Below, in pieces: positions 3,803-22,423 of a stretch of DNA of 64,000 nt. Each line of letters opens with the position of its first letter. Position 1 is the first letter of the stretch. Position numbers and translations under genes: made by a program. This stretch comes from Anaerolinea sp. (lineage in GTDB: Bacteria > Chloroflexota > Anaerolineae > Anaerolineales > Anaerolineaceae). The stretch spans positions 62,001 to 126,000 of the forward strand of contig DYEC01000024.1 of NCBI GenBank assembly GCA_020725865.1, read 5' to 3'. Below the pieces are notes generated by a model. It was not told the origin of the DNA, did no database searches, and worked only from the letters and a program-made list of their open reading frames with translations.

Positions 3803-6800
3803 ATGAGGGCACTGGCAGAGACGATTCGTTCCCAGTTGGATAAATTGACCGCTCAAACCAGCGATTATCTGATGTCGGAAATAACCAAAGGCAACAAGCA
3901 TACCGGAGCGACTGTTGTGAATATGAGTCGCCAGATGCTTGAGCTTACAGCAACTTGCCTTTTAGATGGGGATGCAAGTGCATTTGTGGAATTTACCAGT
4001 AAAGGCGTCTCCCAGATGAGAGAATTGAAAATGACACCTTCTCTGATGGGCGCCAGTCTGCGTGCACTATCCCGGACGTTGCTTGCACTGGATATGAGTG
4101 CAGAGGCATCAAAGTTTATCTGGGATATGTTAATGCGGGCTACCCGTAGTCTGGAAGATGTGATTATTGTTCAGTCCCAGCAAACAGCGGCCCTTGAAGC
4201 GCAAACCGAACGTACCCGGAAAGTGCTGCATTCTGTCTTAAGTACAATGCCTGATGCGGTGTTCCTGACCGACATGCAGGGAAAGGTGAGTCAGGCGAAT
4301 ACGGCGGTAGAAGCATTGTTCGGTTACCGCCATGCTGAATTGGTAGGCATGGATCCCGGTAACCTGATTCACCCCGAGGACCGTGCGACGCTATTACGTG
4401 CCGTGCAAACCACCACGGATATGGGCAAAGATCAGACCTCGTTGCTTGAGTTGCGTTTTGTAAAGAAAGATGGCAGTGTCTTTTTTGGTGAGGCTGCAGT
4501 CGGGGTCATGCTGGACACGGGGGCTATTCCAACTGGGTTCATTGTGGCAGTGCGAGACATCAGTGAGCGCAAGGAAATGGAAGAGCGCATCCGATCGATG
4601 GCTGAACGGCGCGGTCTTCAGGTGCAGGTCACAACCGAACTGGCGCAGGAGCTCGTCACGGCTGAGACGTTAGAGGCAATGCTCGAACGAGTCGTAAAAA
4701 GGGTCAAAGAACGCTTTGGCTACTATCATGTGCAGATTTTGTTTTTTGACGCGGCGGTAAATGCAGTTGTGTTGCTTGCAGGTTATGGTGAGGTGGGGAA
4801 GCAGATGCGAGCAATGGAGTATCGTGTTTCGCTGACCCATTACCCGATTGGTAGCGCAGTGACCAGCGGAGAGACCATACTGATACCAAATGTTCAGCTG
4901 ATCAAAGGCTGGACACCGGAGTCACTCTTGCCTAACACGGCAAGCGAGATTGCCGTACCGATCAAACTGCGTGGAGAGGTGGTCGGCGTACTAGATGTGC
5001 ATAGCGACCAACCCTGGGGTTTGAATGAAGACGATCAGAACCTGCTGGAGGGGCTTTGTGGTCAAATAGCCATTGCGTTTGAGAGCCTGCGTTTGTTAGA
5101 AAAAGAAAAGCTACGTGCCGCTGATCTTTCAACGGTGGCGCAAATCAGCACAGCTGTTTCAACAATTCTAAACCCCATAGAAATGTTACAGGCGGTTGTA
5201 GATCAGACGCGCGAACACTTCAGTCTGTATCACGCTCAAGTTTACTTACTAGAAGATACTAACACGCTGTTGTTACGAGCCAGCACTGGCGAAGTTGGAC
5301 GAAAACTGATAGCTGAAGGTCATGCCATCCCTGTACAGGCAGAACAATCACTTGTGGCGCGCGCCTGCCGCGAGCGGCGTGGTGTAATTGTCAATGACGT
5401 GTGGAAAGACCCTGCTTTCCTGCCCAACCCACTGTTGCCAAAGACGCGCTCTGAACTGGCTGTGCCGTTACTGGCTGGTGATGAAGTGCTTGGGGTTCTG
5501 GATTTACAGTCCAACATCTTGAACAATTTCAGTGAAGAAGATACCAATCTTTTTATTTCGCTGGCTTCTCAGGTGGCGGTTGCCTTACAAAATACTCGCC
5601 AGTTTGAACGTCTGATGGACATGTATCGTGCCAGCCAGCGGGTGAACACAGCCAGCGATTTCAACGAAATGGTTGCAGTTGTGGCTGAGGGCTTAAGAGT
5701 TCCCTCCATCAACCGCGCCGAGTTGATAATCTTTAATTATGATCACTTGGGTCAGATTGAATCGGTCAGCGTTCAGGGTACTTGGTATAGCGGTGAGGGT
5801 CCCAAACCTCAAGCATTGGGAACGATCTACCCAAACACCATGTTTGATTCCATTCGGGTGCTGTTAAGCCCGGATGCGCTCTTTGTGAATGATGTGTTTG
5901 AGGATGATCGAATAGACGCGGCGACGCGAGAATTTCTGCGGGGCCAACATGTTCGCGCCATTGGGATTTTGCCGCTCTGGATCTTATCCCGACAGGTGGG
6001 TACCATACTTATAGAAAGTGATACCGCACATCCCTTCAGCGAAAGCGAGCAGCAAGGATACCAGACGTTTGTTGCTCAGGTTGCCTTGGCTTTAGAGAAC
6101 CGTCGCTTGTTGATTGAGGCACAACAACGTGCAGCCGAGCTTCAAAAATCGCAACAGGCATTGCTCGAAAGTGAAGAACACTTCCGCAACCTGTTTGCCA
6201 GCTCCCCTGTGTCACTGTGGGAAGAGGATTTCAGCCAGGTAAAGGTGTATCTGGATAATTTACGGGCTTCCGGTGTGAGCGACTTGCGCGCATACATGGC
6301 CGAGCATCCTGAGGTTGTTAACGACTGTATGGCAAGGATTCGGATCATTGAAATCAATGACCGCACTTTGCGTTTGTTTGCTGCGCGTTCGAAGCAAGAG
6401 TTGTTAGCGAACCTGAAAAGCATCTTTCGTGAAGAAACAAAAACGGTTATGGCTGAAGAATTGCTGGCAATCTGGCAAGGGCAAACCCATTTTGCCAGTG
6501 AGGGTGTCAACTACACCCTGGATGGTCGCCGTCTGGATGTTTTGGTACAGTGGAGTGTGATTCCCGGACATGAAGCAACGTATGATCGCCTGCTGGTTTC
6601 ATTGGAAGATATAACCTCACGTAAGCGATTCGAGCAATTTGTCACCCAGCGTGCCGAGCAAATGGCGAAAGTTGCCAAAGTTTCGACAGCCATATCTACA
6701 ATTCTTGACCGGGACGAGATGCTCCAAACGGTTGTAGATCTGGTTTGTGAGAATTTTGGACTTTATCATGCCCACGTTTACTTGCTGAATGAGGCGGGGG

Positions 6801-9127
6801 ATACGCTGGTGCTGACCTCCGGAGCGGGCAAGGTGGGCAAAAAACTGGTTTCCAAAGGGCATATCATCCCGCTTGCAGCCACACGGTCGTTGGTGGCTCG
6901 TGCTTGTCGCCAGCGAAGTCCGGTCATTGTCAACGATGTGCGCAAAGAGCCCGGATTTTTACCCAACCCACTATTGCCGGATACACGTTCGGAAGCAGCA
7001 ATTCCATTAGTGGTCGGTAGTCGCATCCTGGGAGTTCTGGATGTTCAATCGAACATTATTAATGGCTTTACTGATGAGGATGTTGGTATTTATACCACGC
7101 TCGCGGCTCAAATAGCAGTCAGTTTGCAGAACACAGAACAGTTTGCTCATCTCAACCGCATGTATAGTGCCGGTCAGCGCATTAATACAGCAAAAACGCT
7201 GGATGAGCTTGTGGCAGTGGTAGCAGAAGAGTTGAAAATCAGCGAGATCAATCGCGGTGTATTGTTGCTCTTCCGCCATGATGCTGCGGGTCGGATAGAG
7301 ACGGCAACAGTTCAAGGCGTCTGGTACAGTGGGGAAGGCACCCGGCCAATTCCCCTTGGAACAACCTACTCTAAAGATGCTTTGACCACCATAAATCTTT
7401 TCCTCAGCCCAAACCCGGTCTTTTCGGACGATGCATCGCAGGATGAAGAGATTGATGCGAAAACATTGGACATGCTGCGGATGCTGAACATGCGCTCATT
7501 GGGTATTCTGCCCGTCTGGGTGGGTGAGGCTCATTTAGGGGCAATCATTCTGGCTGGTGAAGAGCCGCATTACTTTACCGATCGTGAAATTCAAGGTTTG
7601 CGCACGTTGACCACTCAGGTGGCAATTGCACTTGAAAACCGCCGTCTGCTTCTGGAATCCCGAAGGCGCGCTTCTGAGTTGCAGCAATCACAACAATTTT
7701 TGCAGACACTGGTGGATAACCTGCCGGTTGCCGTGGTTGCCAAAGACCCGGAAGGACATTTTACAATCTGGAATAAAACCGCCGAACAGCTCTTTGGTTT
7801 TACCAGAGACCGCGTATTGGGCAAAACAGATTACGACCTCTTCCCAAAGGCGCAGGCAGATTTCTTCCGTGCTAATGATCAGGAAGCTTTAAAGAACGGG
7901 AAAATCATCGACATCCCGGTAGAAGAGGCAGACACGGCGCATCTTGGACGGCGCTTTCTGCACACGGTCAAAGTTCCAATTTATGATGATCAACACAAGC
8001 CGCTGAGTCTGGTGCTAATTACCGAAGATATTACGGAGCGCCAGCTTTATGAGGAGCGGATCAAGGAGTCAGAACGCCGTTTTCGCCAGATGTTGGAGGA
8101 TATCCGCCTGATCGCGATCATGCTGGATAGAGAAGGTAACCTGACCTTCTGCAACAATTATCTATTGGAATTGACGGGCTGGACACGAGAAGAAGTTTTG
8201 GGCAAAAACTGGTTCGAGATCTTCACGTCGGGCGAGGACTGGGTGCAAAAGAGTTTAATCACCGAGGGCATTGAGCGTGATGCTGTGCCCCTTTATCAGG
8301 AAAATTATATCCTGACGAAGCGTGGTGAACAGCGCCTGATTGCATGGAGTAATTCTGTCCTGCGCGATACTGAAGGGAAACCGATTGGCATTACCAGTAT
8401 CGGTGAGGATGTTACCGAGGAGCGCCAGGCAGCACAAGTGATTGCTCAGCGTGCTACCCAACTGGCAACAGTGGCTGAGATTTCCACCACAGTTTCTACC
8501 TTGCTCGAACCCCAGGTGATGTTGCAACGCGTGGTGGATCTGACCAAGGAGCGGTTTGGGTTGTATCATGCCCATATCTATTTGTTGGATGATAAAACCG
8601 ACGAGCTGATTTTGACCGCTGGGGCGGGTGAGGTGGGGCGACAGATGGTTGCAGAACGGCGGACAATTTCGTTGCGGGCAGAAAAATCGCTGGTGGCACG
8701 CGCTGCTCGTAGACGCCAGGGCGACATCGTCAATGATGTTACTGCGGACCCAGAGTTTCTGCCAAATCCGCTTTTACCGGATACCCGTGCAGAGCTGGCA
8801 ACACCTATTTTGATTGGTGATCGAGTGTTGGGGGTGCTGGATGTGCAGGCAAACCGCCCTAATGCTTTCTCTGCCGAGGATGCCGATATCCTGACAACGC
8901 TGGCGGCTCAGATTGCTGTAGCATTACAAAATGCCCGTCAATACGAACAGGCGCGGCGCAGTGCAGAACGCGAGGCGCTTATTAATGCCATCACCGAGCG
9001 TATCCAGAATGCCACTTCGGTTGAAGAAGCTATGCAAATTGCTGTGCGGGAAGTGGGACGGGCGCTTGGCAAAGCACCTGCAACCGTGCGTCTGACTGGC
9101 GGCTTGAAAACCGCACAAGAAAATTGA
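3803..9127 (+). CDS. Giant multi-domain PAS/GAF sensor protein without output domain
   Basis: Cytoplasmic (no membrane segment seen) 1774-residue protein made almost only of sensor modules. Rough order: N-terminal all-helical domain (1-130), PAS (142-265), GAF (272-428), GAF (444-601), divergent GAF (606-771), PAS-like (790-945), GAF (955-1112), divergent GAF (1116-1282), PAS (1300-1418), PAS (1427-1543), GAF (1557-1714) and a short tail (1719-1767). Most canonical GAFs carry the signature LPNPLLPxTRxE near their C-terminal half. No histidine kinase, receiver, GGDEF, EAL or DNA-binding domain is present, so it presumably acts as a scaffold or signal integrator for the histidine kinase encoded at 17 kb. 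The reading frame is open from a TTG at 3782, but ATG 3803 has AAGGAG ten bases upstream. Ligands are unknown. Confidence 0.9.
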   Translation: MRALAETIRSQLDKLTAQTSDYLMSEITKGNKHTGATVVNMSRQMLELTATCLLDGDASAFVEFTSKGVSQMRELKMTPSLMGASLRALSRTLLALDMSAEASKFIWDMLMRATRSLEDVIIVQSQQTAALEAQTERTRKVLHSVLSTMPDAVFLTDMQGKVSQANTAVEALFGYRHAELVGMDPGNLIHPEDRATLLRAVQTTTDMGKDQTSLLELRFVKKDGSVFFGEAAVGVMLDTGAIPTGFIVAVRDISERKEMEERIRSMAERRGLQVQVTTELAQELVTAETLEAMLERVVKRVKERFGYYHVQILFFDAAVNAVVLLAGYGEVGKQMRAMEYRVSLTHYPIGSAVTSGETILIPNVQLIKGWTPESLLPNTASEIAVPIKLRGEVVGVLDVHSDQPWGLNEDDQNLLEGLCGQIAIAFESLRLLEKEKLRAADLSTVAQISTAVSTILNPIEMLQAVVDQTREHFSLYHAQVYLLEDTNTLLLRASTGEVGRKLIAEGHAIPVQAEQSLVARACRERRGVIVNDVWKDPAFLPNPLLPKTRSELAVPLLAGDEVLGVLDLQSNILNNFSEEDTNLFISLASQVAVALQNTRQFERLMDMYRASQRVNTASDFNEMVAVVAEGLRVPSINRAELIIFNYDHLGQIESVSVQGTWYSGEGPKPQALGTIYPNTMFDSIRVLLSPDALFVNDVFEDDRIDAATREFLRGQHVRAIGILPLWILSRQVGTILIESDTAHPFSESEQQGYQTFVAQVALALENRRLLIEAQQRAAELQKSQQALLESEEHFRNLFASSPVSLWEEDFSQVKVYLDNLRASGVSDLRAYMAEHPEVVNDCMARIRIIEINDRTLRLFAARSKQELLANLKSIFREETKTVMAEELLAIWQGQTHFASEGVNYTLDGRRLDVLVQWSVIPGHEATYDRLLVSLEDITSRKRFEQFVTQRAEQMAKVAKVSTAISTILDRDEMLQTVVDLVCENFGLYHAHVYLLNEAGDTLVLTSGAGKVGKKLVSKGHIIPLAATRSLVARACRQRSPVIVNDVRKEPGFLPNPLLPDTRSEAAIPLVVGSRILGVLDVQSNIINGFTDEDVGIYTTLAAQIAVSLQNTEQFAHLNRMYSAGQRINTAKTLDELVAVVAEELKISEINRGVLLLFRHDAAGRIETATVQGVWYSGEGTRPIPLGTTYSKDALTTINLFLSPNPVFSDDASQDEEIDAKTLDMLRMLNMRSLGILPVWVGEAHLGAIILAGEEPHYFTDREIQGLRTLTTQVAIALENRRLLLESRRRASELQQSQQFLQTLVDNLPVAVVAKDPEGHFTIWNKTAEQLFGFTRDRVLGKTDYDLFPKAQADFFRANDQEALKNGKIIDIPVEEADTAHLGRRFLHTVKVPIYDDQHKPLSLVLITEDITERQLYEERIKESERRFRQMLEDIRLIAIMLDREGNLTFCNNYLLELTGWTREEVLGKNWFEIFTSGEDWVQKSLITEGIERDAVPLYQENYILTKRGEQRLIAWSNSVLRDTEGKPIGITSIGEDVTEERQAAQVIAQRATQLATVAEISTTVSTLLEPQVMLQRVVDLTKERFGLYHAHIYLLDDKTDELILTAGAGEVGRQMVAERRTISLRAEKSLVARAARRRQGDIVNDVTADPEFLPNPLLPDTRAELATPILIGDRVLGVLDVQANRPNAFSAEDADILTTLAAQIAVALQNARQYEQARRSAEREALINAITERIQNATSVEEAMQIAVREVGRALGKAPATVRLTGGLKTAQEN

Positions 9128-9153
9128 TCTTATGATGCTCTGAGGAGTTTTAA

Positions 9154-12100
9154 ATGAGTAGTCTGAAACAGCGTTACTCCAAACTTGCATCAAACGAGCA
9201 GCATATCCTCTGGTTTGCCCTTCTGTATGCCGTTATACTGGCTGGAGCAGGGTTTTATTTCTTGCCGTCTTTTCTTTCAGCGGGGCTCTGGCAGGGTACC
9301 CTTGCGGCTGGATTATATGGCTTATTGATCCTGATTGCGTTGGTTGGGGCGGCATGGGTGCTTTTCGGCATGACGCGGGCTGGTGCTTATTTGCTGTTGG
9401 GCGGCTGGTTGACAGGATTGCTTGGGATTGCGCTGTTGGCTGAAGGTTACAGTCTGGTTTTTGCTGCAGTCGGTGCGTTGTTGGTTATTGTTTTAGGGTG
9501 GGAATTGTTTGGCAGTCGACAGGCGCAGTATTATGTCCTTGCAAGCTGGTTATATGTTGGCTTAGTGCTGATTGCAGATTGGTTCTGGCCCTATTGGCGA
9601 ATACCGGTACAAGGGCAAACTGTATTAATGGGACGCAATCTGGGTGTGATGGTTGCGGTGCTCTACCTTTTGATTTTGATCAGGCAGTTTGCGGATTATC
9701 CCCTGCGTGCCAAAGTGACCATTGTGTTTCTGTTTATGGTATTTGCTTCGAGCGGCACAATTACGATTATCAATCAGTCTAATCTGTCCCGTATCCTAGC
9801 CAATAGTATTGGAGAGACGCTACAAAACCTTTCCCAAAACAGCGCCACAGCGTTGGGAGATTTGCTATTCTATCAGGTGGAAAAACTCAACACACTGGCA
9901 CTGGACGAAACTGTGCAGGTGAATGTTTCAATCTCCAATGTTCTCTATCGAGGAAACCAGCAAGAGATCAATGAGATGATTGCCCAGCGTGCGCTGGACT
10001 GGCGTGTGGCTTTTGCTGAGAATAATTTGAGAAACTCACTGGTTGTTAGTCGTCTGGATAGTGCGATGGCTCGCAAGTTGCGTGAATTTTTGATAGCCTT
10101 TCCAGATTTTCAAAATGTTTTTGTAACAGACCGGTATGGAGCGCTGGTGGCTACAAGCCAGATGACTCCTGACTATAGTTTTGCTGACACTTCCTGGTGG
10201 GTAACCGCTTATAACAATGGTCAGGGGTCAGTGTATATTGGCATTCCGGAATATACCACCCGTCTTGAGGAATTTCTTTTGATTTTTGCAGTTCCGGTAC
10301 GGGATGCACAAAGCGGACGCGTGATTGGCGTTTTGAATGCGCAATACCGACCGAGGGCTCTGGTTGGTATTCTACAAACGGCGAGCGGTAGCGTAGCCCA
10401 GACCGATTTGATCTTCCCGAATGGGTTGTCCCTTTATTTGCCTGGGCAATTGATGCTTCAAACTGCAACCACAACTTCTGTGTCCGACATGGACGAGCTT
10501 GCCCTTGGTGTGGCAAACAACGCAGATGCGATTGGTTTTCTTCCTCACGCTTATTATGTGCGCCATGCAGACCGCTTGCGGCTGGTTGCTGTTGAAGGCC
10601 TTCCTCCTTCTCCAGAGGTGGTTCAGCGGGGAAGTTACCCGTTTTCTCGCATGCTCTACCTGTATGTTGACCCTGCGGCTGTTCGCGAAAAACCCCAGGT
10701 TGCTGAATTTATCCATTATTTTATAAGCCATTCGGATGAAGAAAGCCAAGCCTTGGGGTATTTTCCTCTGGGAGCTGATACAAAGGCTGGCGCTTTGGAA
10801 ACTCTGAGGTCAGCCATGGGCGTAAATTCCTTACCAGCGCTTAATCCCGGACAAGTTTCAGGCAATCTATCGGTTGCGGGCAGTGTGTCCCTTGCACCGC
10901 TGGTGAATCGCATGGCAGAACGTTTCCGCGCAGATGGCTTTGATGGGAGTCTGGAGATTGAGGCTGGCGGTACTAGCTCTGGCTTTGAAGCTTACTGTCA
11001 GGGCGGGGCGGTGGACATTGTCATGGCTTCGCGGCAGATTACCGAGCAGGAACGTGGATGGTGTTTGAAAGCAGGACGAAAACCGCTCGCTTTTTCGGTG
11101 AGCCGGGATGCCATTGCCATTGTGGTCAGCCGGAACAACAACTTTTTGTCCAATGTTACATTGAAGCAACTTTTTCCGCTCTTTGTCCAATCCGAAAAGT
11201 GGGCGGGGGTGAATCGGTTCTGGCCAGATCGTCAGATTGTCCGTTTCGTTCCCGGTGCTCAGTTTGATACGTATAACTTCTTTTTACAGGCTCTGTTTAA
11301 CCAGGGTGCTATGCTTGATGTGCAGCCGGGTTTGTTTCAGGTTGCAAACGAACTGGCAAAGCAGGGGCGTTATGCGGAAACAAAGTATTATGGCGGTAAA
11401 GAGAGCTTGGTGAGTGTCCAGCCGATCCGTACAACGATGGGCAGTCTGGAGATTGACAATCTGGGCTGGCTGTTATCACTTCACGCGGATAAAGAGCGCG
11501 TGTTAGCACCGGTTCAAGAACAAACGCAACGCAATTTGCTGTTGACAGTTTTCATCCTGATTGCCACCTCCGTGGTAAGCGTTGCCTTCTCATCGGTAAT
11601 CGTCAATCCCATCCTGCGGCTGACTGAAGCGGCGCGCGCCGTTGCTGCCGGCAAGCTGGAAACGCGCGCGAACATTCGCTCGGGTGATGAAATTGGCGTG
11701 TTGGCATCTGTCTTTGATTCAACAACGGCACAATTGCAAGACTTAATTGGTACGTTGGAGCAGCGCGTTGCCGATCGTACTTTGGCGTTACAGACCTCAA
11801 CGGAGGTCAGCCGGCGGCTATCTACCATTCTTGACCCCTCGCAATTGGTGCTGGAGGTGGTGGAACAGCTCCAATCGGCGTTTGGATATTACCATGCGCA
11901 TATTTATTTGTTTGATCCGACGCAGGAGTATCTGGTGATGAAAGGTGGTACAGGCGAAGCGGGGCGCATTATGCTGGCGCGGGGGCACAAAATCCCGCGC
12001 GGGCGTGGTTTGGTCGGGCGTGCAGCAGAGCTCAATGCTCCGGTCTTTGTGCCGGATGTCTCTGAGGATATGAACTGGTTGCCTAATCCGTTGCTGCCAG

Positions 12101-12501
12101 AAACGAAAGCAGAGGTTGCCGTTCCGATTTCTGTGGGTGATCAGGTCTTGGGTGTTTTGGATGTGCAGCACAATGTTTTAGGTGTTTTGAAGGAAGAAAG
12201 TGTCGCACTGATTCAGGGCATTGCCAGCCAAGTAGCGATTGCACTGCAAAATGCGGAAGCGTACGAACGGGCGCAGCGGCAGGCACAGCGTGAGACATTG
12301 CTGGCTGAGTTGAGCGGCAAAATACAAAGCGCGGCGACAATTGAAGATGTGCTCAAAACTGCTGTTGAGGGGCTAGGACAGGCGCTTAAGGCACGCCGAT
12401 CTGGCGTGGAGCTGGGACTGCGTCGCCCGCCCCAAGTGGTCGGTGAACTAAATAACAACTTAACACAGGAAGAAGGGGGAGACGGTTTTGGCAGTAGTTG
12501 A
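9154..12501 (+). CDS. Membrane sensor: 7TM, Cache-like, PstS-like, HAMP, GAF; no output domain
   Basis: A 1115-residue receptor. Seen: six or seven transmembrane helices (20-208), an extracytoplasmic Cache-like region (about 213-489), a domain resembling the phosphate-binding protein PstS (about 568-750; motifs VAGSVSLAP, GGTSSGFEAY, DIVMASR, ISRDAIAIVVS-like strand), a transmembrane helix (795-821), HAMP (817-873), one GAF (882-1037) and a C-terminal tail like that of the 1774-aa protein. No kinase or methyl-accepting region is present. Starts at ATG with GAGGAG upstream, 26 bases after the previous stop, so co-transcribed. It is a paralogue of the next gene but has the extra PstS-like domain. 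It likely senses an anion or other small ligand outside the cell; phosphate is only a guess. Confidence 0.88.
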   Translation: MSSLKQRYSKLASNEQHILWFALLYAVILAGAGFYFLPSFLSAGLWQGTLAAGLYGLLILIALVGAAWVLFGMTRAGAYLLLGGWLTGLLGIALLAEGYSLVFAAVGALLVIVLGWELFGSRQAQYYVLASWLYVGLVLIADWFWPYWRIPVQGQTVLMGRNLGVMVAVLYLLILIRQFADYPLRAKVTIVFLFMVFASSGTITIINQSNLSRILANSIGETLQNLSQNSATALGDLLFYQVEKLNTLALDETVQVNVSISNVLYRGNQQEINEMIAQRALDWRVAFAENNLRNSLVVSRLDSAMARKLREFLIAFPDFQNVFVTDRYGALVATSQMTPDYSFADTSWWVTAYNNGQGSVYIGIPEYTTRLEEFLLIFAVPVRDAQSGRVIGVLNAQYRPRALVGILQTASGSVAQTDLIFPNGLSLYLPGQLMLQTATTTSVSDMDELALGVANNADAIGFLPHAYYVRHADRLRLVAVEGLPPSPEVVQRGSYPFSRMLYLYVDPAAVREKPQVAEFIHYFISHSDEESQALGYFPLGADTKAGALETLRSAMGVNSLPALNPGQVSGNLSVAGSVSLAPLVNRMAERFRADGFDGSLEIEAGGTSSGFEAYCQGGAVDIVMASRQITEQERGWCLKAGRKPLAFSVSRDAIAIVVSRNNNFLSNVTLKQLFPLFVQSEKWAGVNRFWPDRQIVRFVPGAQFDTYNFFLQALFNQGAMLDVQPGLFQVANELAKQGRYAETKYYGGKESLVSVQPIRTTMGSLEIDNLGWLLSLHADKERVLAPVQEQTQRNLLLTVFILIATSVVSVAFSSVIVNPILRLTEAARAVAAGKLETRANIRSGDEIGVLASVFDSTTAQLQDLIGTLEQRVADRTLALQTSTEVSRRLSTILDPSQLVLEVVEQLQSAFGYYHAHIYLFDPTQEYLVMKGGTGEAGRIMLARGHKIPRGRGLVGRAAELNAPVFVPDVSEDMNWLPNPLLPETKAEVAVPISVGDQVLGVLDVQHNVLGVLKEESVALIQGIASQVAIALQNAEAYERAQRQAQRETLLAELSGKIQSAATIEDVLKTAVEGLGQALKARRSGVELGLRRPPQVVGELNNNLTQEEGGDGFGSS

Positions 12502-12602: not shown

Positions 12603-15600
12603 ATGTTTTCGATACGTAAGCGTTATCTAACCTTGACGGCGGAGATGCGCGTCGTATTCTGGTTTGCCCTCGTTGGTGTAGCCGTAGCGTTTTGGATGGG
12701 TTACTCTGGCTTTCGCCAGTTGCCGGCGGCGACGTTTTCCGGGTGGATTAACGGTATCTTGCCGCTCTTCTTTCTGCTGGGTTCGCTGGCGAGCGTGATT
12801 CTGTTACTGGTTGGGTACTCAAAAGCGGGCGGCAGAATCTTTCTCTTCACCATGTGGATGGTCTTATTAGGTGTGCCATTGGCTGTCAGTGGCATTGGTA
12901 TGGCGATAGCAATTACCGCTTTTTTGCTCACCCTCTATCTCTTCCGGCGGATATTTGCCGGTTTTGCGGCAGAGACAAGCGCGGCAATCGGGCTTTTGCT
13001 GGCAGTTACGATACTTTTGCTGGATACACTGGCATTCTGGCAGCGAATAGAGGTTGCAGAAAGTTTTATCAATCTGCTAAATGCCAGTGCTATGACTGTT
13101 CTGATAATGCTGGCGGTAGTGGTGGCGCAGAATATTACGACTTATTCCATCCGCACCAAGTTGATGCTGGCATTTGTCCTGATCACCGGTTTGCCGGCGG
13201 TGTTCCTCGTTTTTTACAATAATTATCGTATCAGTGGTTTTTTGAACCAACAAGCGAACCAGAAACTTCTGGAGAATGCTTCGAGTGTTGCCAGTGATCT
13301 TGATGTATTCGTTCAAACCAATCTGGATCTTATTCGTACAGAAGCACAACTGCCATCTATTGTCAAATTTATGGAGCGGGCTTTGAGCGTTGAGGAAAGC
13401 TTGGAAGCTCGAATGGAGCTGAGCAACATTTTGAATTCGTTAGTAAAAAAGGACCCGGTCAATATTCGTTCTTATGCGTTGCTGGACAGCAGAGGTATTA
13501 ATATTGTCGACACTGAAGTTAGCAATATCGGCGCTGATGAATCCGGCTTTTTTGATTATTATCGGCGTCCTTTGCTGAGCGGGCTTCCAGCAGTTTCTTT
13601 GTATTATGTTGGTTCAGAAGCTGTCTTAACGTTCAGCGCGCCAGTGGTAGGGGCAGATGGTAACACCCTTGGTGTTTTGCGTGTTCACTATGACACAGAT
13701 GTGTTGCATCAGCGTATTTCCCGGTCCAGCAGTGCTTTTGGGTTGAATGTGAATGTTCTTCTAGTAAATGAAAATGGCATTTTGCTTGCTAATAATTCAA
13801 AACCATGGCTGGTCAATAAGTTTCTCAGCCCGCCTGACCCACAGAACTTAGAAAGGCTGCGTTCTGAGAATCGTCTACCGCGGGTGCCTCCGGAGGATTT
13901 GGCACTCAATTTGCCTTCTCTGAGTGCAGGAATTGCTGCGGCGGGCTCTCAGCCTATATTTACATTTGAAGTCCCGCCCGATCAGCAGGCTTACGGTCCG
14001 CCTCGCGCGGAGCGAGCGAGTTTAGTACAACTAAAAAACGTGCCGTGGTCTGTTGTTGTCGCTGAAGCAGAAGAGGTATTCCTCGCACCAGTTGGACAGC
14101 AAGGACGTGTGATTCGCCTGCTGGGTGTGTTGGCAGTTGCGGTAGGTTTGATTGCTGGTGTTTCTATTTCACAAGTGCTTAGTATGCCGATTATGCAATT
14201 AACAACTGCTTCTAAGCGCATTGCTCAAGGCGATTTGAATGTTAGGGTTCAGGTTCAAACGGGTGATGAACTTGGTTTATTGGCAACTACATTTAACACA
14301 ATGACGGATCAATTGAACGACTTAATTGGTACACTCGAACAGCGTGTTGCCGACAGAACGCGTGAACTGCAACTGGCGGCGGATGTTGGCCAACGCGTCA
14401 GTATGGTCCGTGATCTGGATGTCTTGCTGAACGAAGCGGTGGAGCTGATTCGCCAGCGTTTTGGTTTGTATCACACACAGGTCTATCTGATGGATACTGC
14501 AGGCACCAATCTTGTGTTGCGCGCGGCAACGGGAGAGGCTGGTGCTGAACTGTTGAAGCGCGGGCATCAGTTGCCGCTTGGCCAAGCTTCTATTAACGCC
14601 AGAGCAGCTGCCGAGCGACAGGCGGTGATCGTCTCGGATACTGCCGCCAGTGAGTCCTTCCGTCCCAATCCGCTTTTGCCAAACACGCGCTCCGAAATGG
14701 CTGTGCCGTTGATTGCAGCCGGACGTGTAGTTGGTGTACTGGACTTACAAAGCGATCGCGTGGGTGCATTGAAACAGGAGAACCTGTCCGCATTTGAAGC
14801 GCTGGCTGGACAACTGGCGATTGCCATTTCAAATGCTGAGCTGTTTGGCGAGGTTGAGCGGTCGCGGAAAGATCTGGAAGTGTATCTGAGGCGAATGGCA
14901 CGGGAAGGCTGGGAGGACTTTCTTGATGGAGTCCATGAGAAAGAACGACTGGCTTTCGCTTATGATCAGGGCGCGGTTGTACCAGTGCGCGAAATCCAGC
15001 CGAGCGAGCAAAGTGCGAACGCACTAGTGCAACCGCTACAGGTTGCCGGCGAGCCGATTGGCAAGTTGTTGCTTGAGCGTGACGAATCGTGGACAGAGGA
15101 GGATGTTGAACTGGTGGAAGCAATTGCCCGCCAGGTGACACAGCAGGTAGAAAGTCTGCGTCTGCTGGCGCAGACCGACCGTTACCGCGCTCAGGCAGAA
15201 GAGGCAGTGCGTAGGCTCACTCGCGAAGGTTGGCAGGATTACATGAAGGAATTTGAACGGGCACAGAAGGGTTATGTTTATACGGGGGACCAGGTGGTGC
15301 CGCTTGCTACTGAAAACGAAGGTGATCACTTCGCTGCCTGTGAAATCAGGGTGCGTGACGAGGTAATTGGACAACTGGGTATTGCCGGAACGGAGGAGCT
15401 GGCGCCGGAAGATGCTGAATTGGTGGCGATCATCAGTGAGCGCCTGGGAGCGCATCTGGAAACCCTGCGTCTATTTCAGACCGCGCAGCAGGAACTTTCC
15501 GAACGTCAGCGCGCCGAAGCAGAAAAAGCCCGCTTGCTCGAACAGGTGCAAGCCGCATTGGCTGAAACCGAAACGCTTTATGCTATTTCCAGCGCTGCAA

Positions 15601-16262
15601 CGCGCTCGCTGGAGCTAGATGAGATTTTGCGCGAGACACTGGGAAAGCTTTTGAATGCCACGGGATATGACGCTGGGCTAATCAGCATGACTGATGACAA
15701 GTCTGGTAAGCCCCGGCTGGCAATTCAGCAGAATTTGCCCGATTCGCTGGTAAAGCGCTTGAGTCTAGAGGATACTGAAGATGTTTTGCGTGACCGGTTA
15801 TTACAAAGTCAGGAGACGGTCGTATTTGATAACCTGGCTGAGGATATCCCTCTGGACAGCAGTGCACTTCTTCATGCCGGATTGCATGCCTTTTTAAGTG
15901 TACCAATCATCTCTAAGGGACGTTTGTTGGGCAACCTTGTGCTATTCGGTCAACGTGAGCGTACAACGCCGACGTCTTCACTTTCATTGGTGCAGGCTGC
16001 CGCGCAGCAACTGGGTATTGCCATTGAAAATGTGACTCTCTTCCAGCAAGTACAGCGTCAAGCAGAATACGAGGCGACGATTAATGCCATCAGCCAGAAG
16101 ATTCAGAGCGCTACAACTGTTGAAAGCGCTTTGCAGATAGCGATCCGCGAACTGGGGCGTGCGCTGGGCGCACAACGCACGCGGGTTCATCTCACTGTTG
16201 GAAAGAATGAACAAGCGTCCCTCCAGCGCGGCGGTAATGGTTCACAGGCGGGTGAAAAATGA
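12603..16262 (+). CDS. Membrane sensor: 7TM, Cache-like, HAMP, multiple GAF; no output domain
   Basis: A 1219-residue receptor with the same plan as its upstream neighbour. Seen: about seven N-terminal transmembrane helices (15-205), extracytoplasmic Cache-like region (about 210-460), transmembrane helix (500-528), HAMP (523-580, ending in LIGTLEQRVADRT as in the neighbour), GAF (590-746), two short repeated GAF-like modules each opening with an RxxREGWxDxx pattern (757-860 and 860-963), a coiled segment, a more distant GAF (983-1153) and the shared C-terminal tail (1155-1205). No kinase. ATG start with AAGGAG seven bases upstream. Its TGA overlaps the ATG of the ParA-like gene (ATGA, 16259-16262), which argues for coupled translation. 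Confidence 0.88.
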   Translation: MFSIRKRYLTLTAEMRVVFWFALVGVAVAFWMGYSGFRQLPAATFSGWINGILPLFFLLGSLASVILLLVGYSKAGGRIFLFTMWMVLLGVPLAVSGIGMAIAITAFLLTLYLFRRIFAGFAAETSAAIGLLLAVTILLLDTLAFWQRIEVAESFINLLNASAMTVLIMLAVVVAQNITTYSIRTKLMLAFVLITGLPAVFLVFYNNYRISGFLNQQANQKLLENASSVASDLDVFVQTNLDLIRTEAQLPSIVKFMERALSVEESLEARMELSNILNSLVKKDPVNIRSYALLDSRGINIVDTEVSNIGADESGFFDYYRRPLLSGLPAVSLYYVGSEAVLTFSAPVVGADGNTLGVLRVHYDTDVLHQRISRSSSAFGLNVNVLLVNENGILLANNSKPWLVNKFLSPPDPQNLERLRSENRLPRVPPEDLALNLPSLSAGIAAAGSQPIFTFEVPPDQQAYGPPRAERASLVQLKNVPWSVVVAEAEEVFLAPVGQQGRVIRLLGVLAVAVGLIAGVSISQVLSMPIMQLTTASKRIAQGDLNVRVQVQTGDELGLLATTFNTMTDQLNDLIGTLEQRVADRTRELQLAADVGQRVSMVRDLDVLLNEAVELIRQRFGLYHTQVYLMDTAGTNLVLRAATGEAGAELLKRGHQLPLGQASINARAAAERQAVIVSDTAASESFRPNPLLPNTRSEMAVPLIAAGRVVGVLDLQSDRVGALKQENLSAFEALAGQLAIAISNAELFGEVERSRKDLEVYLRRMAREGWEDFLDGVHEKERLAFAYDQGAVVPVREIQPSEQSANALVQPLQVAGEPIGKLLLERDESWTEEDVELVEAIARQVTQQVESLRLLAQTDRYRAQAEEAVRRLTREGWQDYMKEFERAQKGYVYTGDQVVPLATENEGDHFAACEIRVRDEVIGQLGIAGTEELAPEDAELVAIISERLGAHLETLRLFQTAQQELSERQRAEAEKARLLEQVQAALAETETLYAISSAATRSLELDEILRETLGKLLNATGYDAGLISMTDDKSGKPRLAIQQNLPDSLVKRLSLEDTEDVLRDRLLQSQETVVFDNLAEDIPLDSSALLHAGLHAFLSVPIISKGRLLGNLVLFGQRERTTPTSSLSLVQAAAQQLGIAIENVTLFQQVQRQAEYEATINAISQKIQSATTVESALQIAIRELGRALGAQRTRVHLTVGKNEQASLQRGGNGSQAGEK

Positions 16263-17059
16263 ATGTAAGCAAACCTTATATTATGGCTGTGTGTCATCAA
16301 AAAGGCGGGGTCGGCAAGACAACCACAGCACTGGCGCTGGGAGCCTGTTTAGCCGAAAGGGGATTGCACACTTTGATGGTTGACCTTGACCCTTCCGGCA
16401 ATCTCACTAATGGGGTGGGGTTGATGCAGGCAACAGCCTATAAGTCTATTGCAGATTATCTGCTGGTAAGTGAGCCGTTACAGAGTATTTTGAGGCAGAC
16501 AACAATACCCAATTTGGATATTATTCCAACAAACCAGGATGTAAGCGGGCTGGGGAGTTCATTGTATTCTCTTGCTCAATATGAGACGCTATTGTATCGG
16601 CGCTTTTCCCAAAGCGAATTGGATACATATGATTTTATTATTATAGACTGTCCACCCTCGCTAGGCTCATTGACTATTTTAGCACTGGGCGCCGCACATC
16701 TGGCGCTAATCCCGGTACAGTGTGAGTATTATGCCTTTCAAGCGCTCGAAGGATTATTTAAGCTGATCCGATCCCTGCGCATTAAAGCCAATCCTGATCT
16801 GGCTTACCGATTGTTGATCTCTATGTATGATCGGCGTGGTTTGTTACACACACGCGTGCTGGAGCGTATCCTGGAGAAAATGTCCAAAGCGACCTTTGAA
16901 ACAAGAATTGGGTTTGATAGTAAAATACGGGAAAGTCAGATGGCCGGCGTGCCTTTGCCGGTTTACGCTCCAAATACCCGCGCCGCCCTGCAGTTCCGTG
17001 CTTTAACGGATGAGATTTTGGCCTATGTCCAAGCGCAAAGTATTCCTCAACCGGCTTGA
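16259..17059 (+). CDS. ParA/Soj-like partitioning ATPase
   Basis: A 266-residue deviant Walker-type ATPase. Seen: KGGVGKTT with the signature lysine (about residue 12-19), DLDPSGNLT (switch I), and DFIIIDCPPSLG (switch II/Walker B). Such ATPases position plasmids, chromosomes, chemosensory arrays or other large complexes. No ParB gene or parS-like repeat lies nearby, and it sits between receptor and histidine-kinase genes, overlapping the receptor stop by four bases. I infer an orphan ParA that places or segregates the sensor complex, as ParC-type proteins do for chemotaxis arrays, rather than a chromosomal Soj. Confidence 0.9.
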   Translation: MNVSKPYIMAVCHQKGGVGKTTTALALGACLAERGLHTLMVDLDPSGNLTNGVGLMQATAYKSIADYLLVSEPLQSILRQTTIPNLDIIPTNQDVSGLGSSLYSLAQYETLLYRRFSQSELDTYDFIIIDCPPSLGSLTILALGAAHLALIPVQCEYYAFQALEGLFKLIRSLRIKANPDLAYRLLISMYDRRGLLHTRVLERILEKMSKATFETRIGFDSKIRESQMAGVPLPVYAPNTRAALQFRALTDEILAYVQAQSIPQPA

Positions 17060-19127
17060 TAATCTTTTTTCCGAAGATGCGGCGCCGCCAGATCCCTTTG
17101 AGATGGCACCGCAACAGGAAAAAGATGCCCGCGCTGAAGGCTCAAGTGAACAGCCTGAAGCGGTATTGACTCGTCCCGCACTTGCTCCGGATCAAAAACC
17201 TCATGATGAGCTGAAATCATCAGCAAACCAATTCACGACTGCGCATCTAGAAGGAGCCTGGGCGGAATATCTCAATGCTGTTGACCGTCCGGAACAGATG
17301 ACGTTTAGTTATGATCTGAGCGGTTCTTCTTCCCTTCCCAAGGTTCGGCATGATGACGATTCGTCGCCCAATGGTGGTAAACCGCGCCTTTCGGCGCCGC
17401 TGGTGGTGGGCAATGAGTGCATCGGTACGATTGAATTGGAGGGGGACCCGGAAAATCCCTGGAGCGAGCAAGAAGCCGGGTTAGTTTCCAGTGTTTTGCA
17501 GCAGATGGCACAGCACCTGGAAAATCTGCGCTTGCTTTCGCAGGCGGAACAATATCGCAAGGAAGCGGAACTTGCAGTGCGCCGTCTGACGCGTGAGGGT
17601 TGGGAAAGTTTCCTGGAAAGCCGAGCGACTTCAATCAGCGGTTATGTCTATGATGCTAACCGTGTAGTTCCTGTTGAGACTGATTCTTTGCCTTCTGTCA
17701 CCACGTCAAACTGCATTATTCATCCAATTACGGTGCGTGAAGAAACAATTGGAGAGCTGGTGATTGAAGCCCCCCGGACGGATACAGCAGCCGATTTGCT
17801 GAAAGCGGTTGCCGAGCGGCTGGGCGTGCATATTGAAAATCTGCGCCTTTTGGAAGAAACGGAGCGCGCTCGCCGTCAGCTTGACCGGCGTGCGGCTGAG
17901 CTTGAAACAGTGGCAAAAGTGAGTACGGCAGCGGCGACCATTCTTGATCCAGGAACACTGCTGCGAACAGTGGTGGAGCTAACCAAATACAGCTTTAAAC
18001 TGTATCATGCGCACATTTATGAGCTTAATGAGCTGACCGGTGAGCTGGTGCTGGCTGCCGGTGTGGGCAAGATTGGCGACACCATGCTTTCTGAGCGACA
18101 CTCGATTGCCCTGGATGATCCGCACGCAATGGTTGCAAAAGTGGCGCGCACGCGCAGCGGGATGATCCTTTCTGATACCCGGAGTGACTCTCACTACATA
18201 TATCACCCGTTGCTGCCGGATGTGCGTAGTGAGCTGGCAGTGCCGATGATTGTCGGCGATCAGGTTTTGGGTGTGTTCAGTGTTCTGTCCGACATTCCCA
18301 ACCGTTTTCAGGAAGATGATATGCGTACATTTTCCACGCTTGCTTCACAGACGGCGGTAGCACTGCGCAATGCGCAATTGTATGCCGAACAGATGCGCAC
18401 TGTTGAGCGTCTGCGCGAGCTTGATCAACTGAAAACCTCCTTCCTGGCAAACATGAGCCACGAGCTGCGCACGCCGTTGAACTCCATTCTCGGTTTTACC
18501 GATGTGATGCTAATGGGATTGGATGGACCGTTGACCGATTTGATGGTCAATGATCTGGGATTAATCCAGAAGAATGGCAGGCATCTGCTCAGTCTGATCA
18601 ATGATGTGCTGGATATGGCGAAGATTGAAGCTGGTAAGATGAATCTGGTCTTTGAGCGCTTCAAACTAGAGGACGTGATTAAAGAGGCGTTGGATGTAGC
18701 AAGTCCACTTGCTCGTGAGAAGGGTCTCTGGCTTAATTTTCATCCCGGCAATGCTGAGGGACTGGAACTGGTGGCGGATGCAGTGCGGATGCGCCAGGTG
18801 TTGATCAATATTCTGGGTAACGCGATTAAATTTACCGAGACCGGTGGTGTAGATTTGTCGGTAGAAAAGCGGGAAGAGGTAGTGCATATTGTGGTAGCGG
18901 ATACCGGCATCGGTATCCCGGAAAACAAGCTAGAAATGATCTTTGAAGCCTTCAGTCAGGTGGATACATCCACAACCCGCAAAGCTGGCGGTACTGGACT
19001 GGGTTTGCCGATTAGTCGTCGTTTGATTGAGCTTCAAGGTGGCAGGCTATGGGCAGAGAGCAGTGGTATACCTGGTGAGGGTTCCCGTTTTATTATTGAA
19101 ATGCCGTTAGAGGTGAAAGCTGAATAA
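17025..19127 (+). CDS. GAF-domain sensor histidine kinase
   Basis: The only kinase of the block, soluble, 700 aa from ATG 17025. Seen: a charged N-terminus, two short GAF-like modules (72-176 and 176-276, the second with LTREGWESFL as in the 1219-aa receptor), a full GAF (293-456), HisKA with phospho-acceptor His479 in MSHELRTPLN, and HATPase_c (582-696) with N box, DTGIGIP and GTGLGLPIS. No receiver or HPt domain is present; receivers are encoded in the next two genes. The frame is also open to ATG 17010; neither start has a strong ribosome binding site and both overlap the parA end. Likely reads out the upstream scaffolds and phosphorylates the downstream receivers. Confidence 0.93.
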   Translation: MSKRKVFLNRLDNLFSEDAAPPDPFEMAPQQEKDARAEGSSEQPEAVLTRPALAPDQKPHDELKSSANQFTTAHLEGAWAEYLNAVDRPEQMTFSYDLSGSSSLPKVRHDDDSSPNGGKPRLSAPLVVGNECIGTIELEGDPENPWSEQEAGLVSSVLQQMAQHLENLRLLSQAEQYRKEAELAVRRLTREGWESFLESRATSISGYVYDANRVVPVETDSLPSVTTSNCIIHPITVREETIGELVIEAPRTDTAADLLKAVAERLGVHIENLRLLEETERARRQLDRRAAELETVAKVSTAAATILDPGTLLRTVVELTKYSFKLYHAHIYELNELTGELVLAAGVGKIGDTMLSERHSIALDDPHAMVAKVARTRSGMILSDTRSDSHYIYHPLLPDVRSELAVPMIVGDQVLGVFSVLSDIPNRFQEDDMRTFSTLASQTAVALRNAQLYAEQMRTVERLRELDQLKTSFLANMSHELRTPLNSILGFTDVMLMGLDGPLTDLMVNDLGLIQKNGRHLLSLINDVLDMAKIEAGKMNLVFERFKLEDVIKEALDVASPLAREKGLWLNFHPGNAEGLELVADAVRMRQVLINILGNAIKFTETGGVDLSVEKREEVVHIVVADTGIGIPENKLEMIFEAFSQVDTSTTRKAGGTGLGLPISRRLIELQGGRLWAESSGIPGEGSRFIIEMPLEVKAE

Positions 19128-19201: not shown

Positions 19202-20851
19202 ATGTCTATCCCACAATATCTTGAATGTATGCAGTGTCAGCATCAGCAGGCTTATAAGCCGCTGGAGTTGCCAACTTGCGAGAATTGCGGCGCTAACTGG
19301 TTAGAACCGATCTATGATTATGCTTTGTTCAAGCGGCAGGTATTGCGCGGCTTACCCGGACGACTGTTCAATATGTGGCGTTATCATGAGGTCCTGCCGG
19401 TTAATGATCCATTTGCGTTGAATCTGGACTATGTGGGCGGGACGCCACTGGTTCCTGCCCGGCAATTTGCTGCCGATTTAGAGAGCACCCGACTTTATAT
19501 TAAAGACGAACGTTACGGACCAACCAGCTCATTTAAGGATCGCCAAGCAGCTCTTTCGGTCGCGGCAATGCTGGAAGCTGGCGTGCGCGAAAGCGTGATT
19601 GCCTCGACCGGTAACGCGGCAGTGGCTTATGCGGCTGCCTGTGCTCGAGCAGGTATCAAGTTATGGGTCTTCATGACCAGTCTGGTACCTTCAGAGAAGC
19701 TGCGCGAGGCAGCGTTGTTTGGTGCCGAGGTCATTAAAGTCAGCGGCACCTATGATCAAACCAAACAAATAGCGGCAGAGTTTGCCCGCCGGCGCGGTTT
19801 GCCCCTCGATCGCGGTGCGCATAGCATCCCGGCGCGTGAGAGTATGAAGACCCTTGCCTATGAGATTGCCGAACAGCTTGGCTGGCAGGCACCCGATTGG
19901 TACGTGCAATCAGTTAGCGGCGGACTTGGTCCGCTGGGGGTATATCATGGTTTTATGGAATTGCTCCGCATGGGACTGGTGGATCGTATTCCAAAGATAG
20001 CGGTTATTCAAACGGAAGGTTGTGCACCGATGGTGCATGCTTTTAAGGCAGGTAAGCCTACAGCCGATCCGGTCATCCCACAAACGTTGATCGCCATCCT
20101 CTCAACAGGCGATCCGGGAAAGACTTACACATATCTCTGGAAGTTGCTCAACCAGTATGGCGGTGTGATGGAAAGCGTGAGTGACAGCGAGGCGTTTACC
20201 GTGATGCATTCGCTGGCAAAGCGTGAGGGGATGGCAGTAGAGCCGGCTGCGGCGGTGGCATTTGCTGGTTATGAAAAGCTGCGCCGGCAAGGTGTCATCG
20301 GTGCTGATGAGCTGGTGGTCATCAATTGTAGCGGGCATACCTTCCCGGTGGAAAAGCATGTGCTGGGCGACCAATGGAAAGTGGATATCAGTTTGGGTAG
20401 CGTTGCACCGGCAGCTCCTAAAGAAGGGCTGGTAGCGGCACTGGAATCTCTCGATGAAAAAACTACCACCGTGTTGATTATCGAAGATAACCCCGATGAC
20501 GCGTTACTGATTCGTCGGTTTCTGGAGAGCCGTAAAGCCTACCGCGTTTTCCATGCAGAGAGCGGTATGGAAGGATTGAAGCAGGCGCGTCAACGCTTGC
20601 CAGATTTGATAATTTTGGATATGATGATGCCGGAAGTGGACGGTTTTCAGGTTTTAAAGGAATTAAAGCAAGAAGAAGCTACCGGGCGCATCCCGGTGAT
20701 TATTGTTAGCGCCAGAGATGTCACCAGATCAGAATTAGAAGCTGTGGGTGGTGTGGAGGGTGTCTATCAGAAAAGTAATCTTCCAGTACAGACTTTCTTG
20801 AATCAGGTGACGGAAGTGCTTGAACAAAAACGGCGCGCAGAAGAGGAGTAA
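19202..20851 (+). CDS. Threonine synthase-like PLP enzyme fused to a response-regulator receiver
   Basis: A 549-residue fusion. Residues 1-400: an N-terminal zinc-ribbon-like part (two CxxC pairs in the first 30 residues) and a fold-type II PLP enzyme with Schiff-base lysine K112 in PTSSFKDRQA, the phosphate/substrate loop STGNAAVAYAA and a glycine-rich SVSGGLGPLG loop. Residues about 422-545: a CheY-like receiver with acidic pair in IIEDNPDD, phospho-acceptor D473 in IILDMMMP, a Ser in VIIVSARD and Lys in VYQKS. All catalytic receiver residues are present, so it should be phosphorylatable. Threonine synthase makes threonine from O-phosphohomoserine; whether this copy keeps that activity is unproven. 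Placed 74 bases after the histidine kinase and just before a second receiver and a second threonine synthase. Confidence 0.9.
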   Translation: MSIPQYLECMQCQHQQAYKPLELPTCENCGANWLEPIYDYALFKRQVLRGLPGRLFNMWRYHEVLPVNDPFALNLDYVGGTPLVPARQFAADLESTRLYIKDERYGPTSSFKDRQAALSVAAMLEAGVRESVIASTGNAAVAYAAACARAGIKLWVFMTSLVPSEKLREAALFGAEVIKVSGTYDQTKQIAAEFARRRGLPLDRGAHSIPARESMKTLAYEIAEQLGWQAPDWYVQSVSGGLGPLGVYHGFMELLRMGLVDRIPKIAVIQTEGCAPMVHAFKAGKPTADPVIPQTLIAILSTGDPGKTYTYLWKLLNQYGGVMESVSDSEAFTVMHSLAKREGMAVEPAAAVAFAGYEKLRRQGVIGADELVVINCSGHTFPVEKHVLGDQWKVDISLGSVAPAAPKEGLVAALESLDEKTTTVLIIEDNPDDALLIRRFLESRKAYRVFHAESGMEGLKQARQRLPDLIILDMMMPEVDGFQVLKELKQEEATGRIPVIIVSARDVTRSELEAVGGVEGVYQKSNLPVQTFLNQVTEVLEQKRRAEEE

Positions 20852-20855: not shown

Positions 20856-21239
20856 ATGAGCCGACGTGTGCTTTATATCGAAGATAATCCGGACAATATG
20901 ACATTAGTGCAACGGGCAATTGAGGCTATTGGATTGACTTTCATCGGAGCAGAAAATGGGACGCGGGGATTGGAAGTCGCCTTTTCTGACACACCAGATT
21001 TGATTTTGCTGGATATAAATTTACCTGATATAGATGGTTATGAGGTGGCGCGCCGTCTGCGCAATAGCGGCAGGGCCGAGTTAAAGTATGTTCCGATTGT
21101 CGCGGTCACTGCCAATGCACTGCGCGGCGATGCCGAAAAGGCGCTTGAGGCAGGCTGTGATGTTTACATGTCCAAACCGATCAATATCCGTGAGCTGTGG
21201 GCACGGGTCGAAGCATTGCTGTCTGATACAAAGTCGTGA
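20856..21239 (+). CDS. Single-domain response regulator (CheY/DivK-like receiver)
   Basis: A 127-residue stand-alone receiver. Seen: VLYIEDNPDN acidic pocket, phospho-acceptor D53 in ILLDINLPDIDG, Thr in VAVTANALRGDA and Lys in YMSKPI. There is no output domain. ATG 20856 is chosen because AGAGGAG lies eight bases upstream; the longer frame from a TTG would overlap the preceding fusion gene. Its TGA overlaps the GTG start of the downstream threonine synthase gene (GTGA, 21236-21239). Likely partner of the histidine kinase two genes upstream; it may work as a shuttle or phosphate sink in competition with the receiver of the fusion protein. Confidence 0.93.
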   Translation: MSRRVLYIEDNPDNMTLVQRAIEAIGLTFIGAENGTRGLEVAFSDTPDLILLDINLPDIDGYEVARRLRNSGRAELKYVPIVAVTANALRGDAEKALEAGCDVYMSKPINIRELWARVEALLSDTKS

Positions 21240-22423
21240 CCTTCAATTCTCCTTTTTCTTATCTAAAACATCTGGAATGCTCTGGATGCCACGAGCATTT
21301 TGATCCGCGTCAGTTGCAGACATATTGCCCGATCTGTCAGTCACCTCTTGTTGCTCTTTATGACCTTGAAACTGCCAGAAAGCAGCTTGACCGCGAACAG
21401 ATCAGCCGGCGGCGTCAGGCGATGTGGCGCTGGCATGAATTACTGCCAGTATTTGACCCGCAGAACGTCATCACGTTGGGCGAGGGGGATACGCCCTTGC
21501 TCACCCTGCCGCATTTGGGCGCAAAGCTCGGTTTGCGGCATCTGATGCTTAAGGATGAGAGCATGAACCCAACCGGTAGCTTCAAGGCGCGCGGGCTTTC
21601 TGCAGCCATCTCCAAAGCGAAAGAGCTTGGGGTGGAAAAGGTAATTATTCCCACTGCCGGCAATGCGGGAGGCGCCATGGCAGCCTATGCCAGCCGTGCC
21701 GGTTTGAAAGCACATATCTTCATGCCCAAAGATACCCCGCTGGCGAATGTGCTGGAAAGCCGCATCGCCGGTGCAACAGTCATTTTGATTGATGGTCTGA
21801 TTTCAGAAGCTGCTGGTATGGCAGGGGTCAAAGCGCGTGAAGAGGGTTGGTTTGATGTTTCGACTTTTAAAGAACCTTATCGCCTTGAAGGCAAAAAAGT
21901 GATGGGTTATGAGCTGACCGAGGCTCTTGGATGGGTGCTGCCAGACGTAATTATCTATCCAACCGGCGGTGGCACTGGATTGGTAGGTATCTGGAAAGCA
22001 ATCGGTGAATTGGAAGCGCTGGGCTGGCTGGAAAGCAGGCGTAAGCCGCGCATGATTGCTGTGCAGGCTGAAGGTTGTGCGCCGGTAGTACGCGCTGTTG
22101 AACGCAATGCTCCCTTCTGTGATTTTTGGGTGGGTGCAGAAACGATCGCATCCGGATTGCGGGTGCCAAAAAGTTTTGCCGACCAGTTGATCTTAAAGAC
22201 AATACGAGAATCCGGCGGAACTGCAGTGGCAGTCAGCGATACAGCGATTTTACAAGCCCAGAAAGAACTGGCAATGATGGAGGGAGTATTCGCTGCCCCG
22301 GAAGGTGCTGCCACGCTGGCAGCGCTAGCCACACTCAAAGAGCGTCAACTTATCCATCCGGACGAGCAAATCCTGCTTCTCAATACCGGCACCGGTCTTA
22401 AGTATCTCGAACAGTTACATTGA
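21236..22423 (+). CDS. thrC: Threonine synthase
   Basis: PLP-dependent enzyme converting O-phospho-L-homoserine to threonine, 395 aa. Seen: N-terminal zinc ribbon (CSGC and CPIC), Schiff-base lysine K117 in NPTGSFKARG, PTAGNAGGAMAAY loop, and the glycine-rich PTGGGTGLVG loop that binds the PLP phosphate. The GTG start shares four bases with the receiver stop, so its translation is tied to a signalling gene. It is a paralogue of the PLP part of the fusion protein two genes upstream, but lacks a receiver. No other threonine-pathway gene (hom, thrB) is in the window. It is convergent with a small membrane protein gene only about 30 bases away. Confidence 0.9.
   Translation: MTFNSPFSYLKHLECSGCHEHFDPRQLQTYCPICQSPLVALYDLETARKQLDREQISRRRQAMWRWHELLPVFDPQNVITLGEGDTPLLTLPHLGAKLGLRHLMLKDESMNPTGSFKARGLSAAISKAKELGVEKVIIPTAGNAGGAMAAYASRAGLKAHIFMPKDTPLANVLESRIAGATVILIDGLISEAAGMAGVKAREEGWFDVSTFKEPYRLEGKKVMGYELTEALGWVLPDVIIYPTGGGTGLVGIWKAIGELEALGWLESRRKPRMIAVQAEGCAPVVRAVERNAPFCDFWVGAETIASGLRVPKSFADQLILKTIRESGGTAVAVSDTAILQAQKELAMMEGVFAAPEGAATLAALATLKERQLIHPDEQILLLNTGTGLKYLEQLH

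Follow-up and report, generated by a model that had tools for sequence, protein, structure and literature searches.

A PALP enzyme domain fused to a response-regulator receiver beside a fixed histidine kinase neighbor in Chloroflexota

A gene of Anaerolinea sp. (phylum Chloroflexota) joins a PLP-enzyme domain of the PALP type and a CheY-like receiver in a single protein, and this PALP-receiver arrangement recurs across Chloroflexota in two versions, here termed type A and type B. We consider it rather probable that the fusion is a response regulator with a PLP enzyme as its output, which would be switched by the histidine kinase encoded beside it. The observed basis of this reading is the fusion itself, its membership in a single clade, the intact residues of its PLP site and receiver, and its fixed kinase neighbor. 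The gene lies in a stretch of 64,000 nucleotides (GenBank assembly GCA_020725865.1, contig DYEC01000024.1, positions 62,001 to 126,000 of the forward strand), referred to below as the window, and all coordinates are given relative to it (Table 1).

Architecture of the fusion gene

The fusion is encoded by a single intact frame (19202-20851) with an ATG start and 549 codons. The initial annotation, made from the sequence without database searches, had described a PLP enzyme with a zinc-ribbon start and a Schiff-base lysine at K112, joined C-terminally to a CheY-like receiver that retains D473, the acidic pair, the serine and the lysine. The enzyme part was confirmed by a Pfam match to PF00291 (PALP) at residues 77-377 (E 3.8e-69, above the gathering score), by alignment and by the four cysteines of the N-terminal segment. 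The receiver was likewise confirmed, by alignment and by a match to PF00072 (Response_reg) at residues 424-512 (E 9.1e-20; 71.3 bits against a cut-off of 30.2), and the response-regulator residue set comprises the acidic pair E428/D429 together with D473, S503 and K524. In an AlphaFold model of the fusion (pLDDT 78.2, pTM 0.75) the secondary structure of both domains is present. Confidence is low at residues 378-391 and at residues 398-410, the latter lying just before the linker helix, and the model therefore does not give the relative seating of the PALP domain and the receiver. Structure prediction of the two domains together, which had been proposed as a check, thus bore out the secondary structure of each domain, but at this confidence the model demonstrates no interdomain contact.

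A frameshift or assembly join at about 20440-20470 had been named as the finding that would undo the fusion, in which case an error in sequencing or assembly would have merged two neighboring genes. About 100 other, independent Chloroflexota loci, named isolates among them, show this full-length architecture too, however, which excludes such a join and leaves the artefact explanation with a negligible probability.

Table 1. Features of the fusion gene and its neighborhood in the window.
Feature	Coordinates	Strand	Remarks
Large PAS/GAF multi-domain protein	3782..9127	+	kinase domain absent
dCache-HAMP-GAF sensor with PBP_like_2	9154..12501	+	kinase domain absent
dCache-HAMP-GAF sensor	12603..16262	+	kinase domain absent
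ParA-like ATPase (PF13614)	16259..17059	+	overlaps start of kinase gene
Soluble histidine kinase	17025..19127	+	GAF, HisKA, HATPase; without a receiver of its own; likely phospho-donor
PALP-REC fusion	19202..20851	+	549 aa; zinc-ribbon, PALP with K112, conserved linker, receiver with D473
Zinc-ribbon-like N-terminal segment	19202..19306	+	C9, C12, C26, C29
PALP domain, residues 77-377	19430..20332	+	K112, N138, S239-GG-x-GP-x-G246 loop, S377; Pfam, alignment, Foldseek
Conserved linker, residues 401-421	20402..20464	+	EGLxAAL motif; helix 407-421 in AlphaFold model
Receiver, residues 422-540	20465..20821	+	E428/D429, D473, S503, K524; Pfam PF00072
Stand-alone CheY-like response regulator	20856..21239	+	begins 4 bases past fusion stop
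Threonine-synthase family protein	21236..22423	+	4-base overlap with CheY-like gene

Distribution and conservation of the fusions

Of 40 sampled relatives, 20 have a full-length fusion, and a survey of occurrence, whose scope was the Chloroflexota, found the fusion in 34 of 301 genomes, counting the one from which the window comes. The fusion is also present in at least 80 genome contigs, a set made up of the best 80 of 144 matches, which includes named strains of Herpetosiphon as well as a complete genome. In plasmid records no place covered 80% of the fusion query, and no unfused member of the PALP clade to which the fusions belong was seen in the lists for the 40 sampled relatives and the 301 genomes. 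In one relative (L142, frame 955-4425 on the minus strand) a further receiver-like segment forms the C-terminus, which gives the arrangement PALP-receiver-receiver.

The 97 other fusions that were aligned comprise 82 of type A, the type of the window (about 59-69% identical), and 15 of type B (about 50%), and some genomes (G027, G029 and G039) possess both types. All 97 share C9, C12, C26 and C29 of the zinc-ribbon, K112, G137 and N138, then S239, G240, G241, G243, P244 and G246 of the glycine loop, G378 and H379, and D429, D473 and K524 of the receiver, while positions 377 and 503 are serine or threonine throughout. Within the EGLxAAL motif of the linker, G409, A413 and L414 are also invariant (97 of 97). 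Among these fusions the top residue has a mean frequency of 0.83 over the PALP domain and of 0.78 over the receiver.

Gene order in the two types

The order of genes in type A is kinase, fusion, CheY-like regulator and, often, threonine synthase. Among the best 80 of 144 matches, 79 loci have a histidine kinase directly upstream of the fusion and 78 have a CheY-like regulator downstream of it; from the same 80 matches, a threonine-synthase family gene was found downstream in 34 of the 69 loci that have room for one. Type A loci L031, L037, L045, L079, L085 and L107 have two consecutive CheY-like genes after the fusion. Of the 67 type A loci that have room for a ParA-like ATPase, 5 were found to have one. 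The genes further downstream differ by lineage, and because genes outside the core vary in this way the wider pathway is not fixed.

The H-box of the kinase was found in 72 of 76 homologous frames, and the frames end 220-239 residues past it. With an end point at about 230 residues beyond the H-box, the kinases of type A have no receiver of their own, and the receivers of the module are therefore those of the fusion and of the CheY-like protein. Domain scans revealed no DNA-binding domain in the module genes that were scanned, and the enzyme would therefore be the obvious effector.

Upstream of these genes in the window (3782-16262) lie three consecutive large sensor-like proteins, in which Pfam identified neither a kinase nor a cyclase nor a chemoreceptor output domain. 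The sensors scanned in types A and B possess Cache, HAMP, GAF or PAS domains without a kinase domain, and for this reason they may act via the soluble kinase. In the sensor at 9154-12501, PBP_like_2 (566-717) is placed between Cache and HAMP; the matches of relatives to this protein lie mostly in its HAMP/GAF part.

The type B order, taken from 12 loci (L108-L119), is nearly constant and runs from a kinase-less sensor through a ParA-like ATPase, a hybrid kinase and the fusion to an EamA transporter. The hybrid kinase upstream, the fusion and the EamA gene downstream are present in 12 of 12 loci, and the ParA-like ATPase is beside the kinase in 9 of 12. The hybrid kinase differs from the kinase of type A, and both of the kinases scanned (n=2) contain two receivers. 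The EamA transporter gives a weak match, below cut-off, to TIGR00950 (carboxylate/amino acid/amine transporter), and its position 3' of the type B fusion would fit a small metabolite as product or substrate.

Relationship of the PALP domain to threonine synthase and cysteate synthase

The best matches of the fusion in the PDB, by sequence and by fold, are threonine synthases (best Foldseek E 9.6e-23), and identity to ThrC (PDB 2zsj, 1uim, 2d1f and 1e5x; models NF006050 and TIGR00260) is about 30-35%. Pfam, alignment and Foldseek agree that the fusion has the PALP fold, the Schiff-base lysine and the PLP-site residues of threonine synthase, including the PLP-site Asn and Ser/Thr: K112, N138 and S377 align with K61, N87 and T317 of the Thermus enzyme, in which K61 is the Schiff-base lysine. 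The N-terminal zinc-ribbon is also as in threonine synthases of the NF006050 type. Unlike ThrC, the fusion falls below the cut-offs of NF006050 (239 versus 303 bits) and TIGR00260 (153 versus 167 bits), has altered pocket motifs, forms a clade of its own and carries a C-terminal receiver; the other threonine-synthase models shown were missed as well. In the alignment, Thermus N154, S155 and N188, which we take to be residues that hold the substrate phosphate, are replaced by R204, G205 and G240, R160 is shifted or lost, and the motif R-x-E-G-Q-K-T is matched by A-R-E-S-M-K-T. The position of N188 is also Gly in the protein encoded at 21236-22423, and the change at this position alone is therefore weak as evidence. 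When 71 PALP domains were placed in a tree, those of the fusions all fell into one clade (support 100), the stem of which measures 1.87 changes per column; long branches were flagged among the other groups, so that the deeper order of this tree is unsure.

The fusion could nonetheless be a true threonine synthase that converts O-phosphohomoserine to threonine under phospho-control. Besides its closest PDB matches, this explanation has in its favor a threonine-synthase family gene in the same gene run and the presence of hom and thrB in the genome. However, that family gene, next but one after the fusion, encodes a protein that passes NF006050 (563 bits) and TIGR00260 (176 bits) and is, judged by its sequence, a much better threonine synthase than the fusion. 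The same genome also has a separate thrC-thrB pair, in which the gene at C12:20637-21521 scores 295 bits with TIGR00260, above the cut-off, and thrB comes next. Together with the missed cut-offs and the altered equivalents of the Thermus pocket residues and motif, this pair makes phospho-control of a true threonine synthase highly improbable. The name threonine synthase was rejected on the curated cut-offs, the altered pocket and the separate, deep clade, and the threonine synthase identity and threonine production suggested by the initial annotation could not be upheld.

Several pocket residues are thus replaced, and the replacements are in part cysteate-synthase-like. In one PDB alignment, the fusion loop at about residues 204-217 gives a gap-free partial match to the GGAxNIARRDGM-type pocket loop of cysteate synthase 9k3c (GGAKNIARRDGMAT in the fusion versus RGAHSIPARESMKT), and both proteins have Y-x-Q ahead of the glycine loop. 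Matches of full-length fusions to the cysteate synthase model TIGR03844 reach 104-122 bits, higher than those of the other PALP proteins of their genomes, but the cut-off is 324.9 and the name cysteate synthase was rejected on these scores. Overall the fusion is nearer to threonine synthase than to cysteate synthase, and the known cysteate synthase has no receiver.

The receiver domain

A tree of 90 receivers (126 columns), although weakly resolved, joins the receivers of type A and type B fusions as sister groups (support 91). Of the other receivers in the sample, the last ones of the adjacent type B kinases come closest (support 95). This topology would fit a single fusion event, in which the receiver was a relative of that of the neighboring kinase. 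The receiver of the window evolves faster than those of its relatives (end branch 0.44); it has E428 where nearly all relatives have Asp, and S525-N526 where most have G-S. The residue after the receiver lysine is thus Ser here and Gly in most relatives, as against the usual Pro.

Proposed mechanism and alternative explanations

The initial annotation had proposed direct two-component control of an enzyme and had named the kinase at 17025-19127 for an assay. Conservation and gene order indirectly support such control of a PLP enzyme, with this kinase as the likely partner. We infer sensor-to-kinase signaling, phosphorylation by the kinase, catalysis, the direction of control and the type of substrate as follows. 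The kinase-less Cache/HAMP/GAF and PAS/GAF sensors would signal to the soluble GAF histidine kinase, which would phosphorylate D473 of the fused receiver; phosphorylation would then alter the activity of the PALP domain, probably via the conserved linker helix or the oligomer; and the PALP domain would act on an amino-acid-type substrate, probably other than O-phosphohomoserine. The retention in 97 of 97 fusions of the PLP site (K112, N138, the glycine loop and S/T377) along with D429, D473, S/T503 and K524 argues for this mechanism, as do the kinase that accompanies 79 of 80 type A and 12 of 12 type B fusions and the receiver tree. Arguing against it are the atypical serine after the receiver lysine, the low confidence of the model at residues 398-410, the lineage-dependent genes outside the core and the fact that a PLP-binding sensor would retain the same lysine.

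This last point belongs to the main rival, which the initial annotation had also offered and in which the PALP domain is a metabolite sensor that binds an amino acid via PLP with little or no turnover, its bound state altering the uptake or loss of phosphate by the receiver and the signal passing to the CheY-like regulator. Such a role would account for the output-less CheY-like protein that comes next in 78 of the best 80 matches, for a pocket unlike that of threonine synthase, in a clade whose stem has 1.87 changes per column, and for a genome in which a further threonine synthase is superfluous. Sequence cannot separate a sensor from a PLP-enzyme output because both would keep the lysine. 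However, the PLP site is kept in its entirety, along with many further residues and with no sign of decay (mean top-residue frequency 0.83 in the PALP domain), and type B has EamA rather than a CheY-like gene after the fusion, which fits the flux of an enzyme better; we thus regard the sensor as possible but unlikely. The receiver might instead serve for docking only, tethering the enzyme to a cluster of kinase, sensor and ParA and so setting its location in the cell rather than its catalysis. Docking would be consistent with the conserved linker that joins the two domains and with the ParA-like ATPase gene, which lies just 5' of the kinase both in the window and in 9 of the 12 type B loci. 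However, ParA, found in 5 of 67 type A loci, is absent from most of them, and the full phosphorylation set in every member exceeds what docking needs, which makes this explanation highly improbable.

The response regulator with an enzyme output that we favor could be extended to a system that has a dedicated small molecule as its output. The sensors would switch on the PLP enzyme, which would make an unusual amino-acid-like signal compound, and in type B the adjacent EamA transporter would carry this compound across the membrane; we offer this extension as a speculation that is unlikely to hold.

Comparison with known systems and significance

With a receiver and a metabolic-enzyme domain in one chain, the protein has the arrangement that defines receiver-enzyme fusions. 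Receivers with metabolic enzymes as output are a known class that includes KaiC-REC, glycosyltransferase-REC, thioredoxin reductase and pyruvate phosphate dikinase (PMC5847659, section 14); these share with the present fusion a receiver joined to an enzyme, taken as environmental control, and a lineage-specific occurrence. The fusion differs from that class in its enzyme family, in its spread over several classes of one phylum, and in its two conserved gene arrangements with a fixed kinase in each. The wing domain of LdcI has a receiver-like fold. The lysine decarboxylase LdcI resembles the fusion as a PLP enzyme with an extra domain, an N-terminal wing that anchors the decamer, and ppGpp is its inhibitor (PMC4832331); unlike the fusion, it belongs to another PLP fold type and involves neither phosphorylation nor a kinase. 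The initial annotation had known of no described system of this kind. This holds for the PALP-receiver pair, of which no description was found in the open-licence literature searched, but receivers on metabolic enzymes as such were already known.

Judged from the sequences, the direct target of a sensor system of the Chloroflexota is probably an amino-acid-type enzyme rather than a gene. If this is true, a phylum that is hard to grow controls such an enzyme by phosphorylation without intervening gene regulation. A clade of PLP enzymes also gains a genetic context of kinase, transporter and ParA, in which substrate and signal can be sought jointly, for example in cultured Herpetosiphon.
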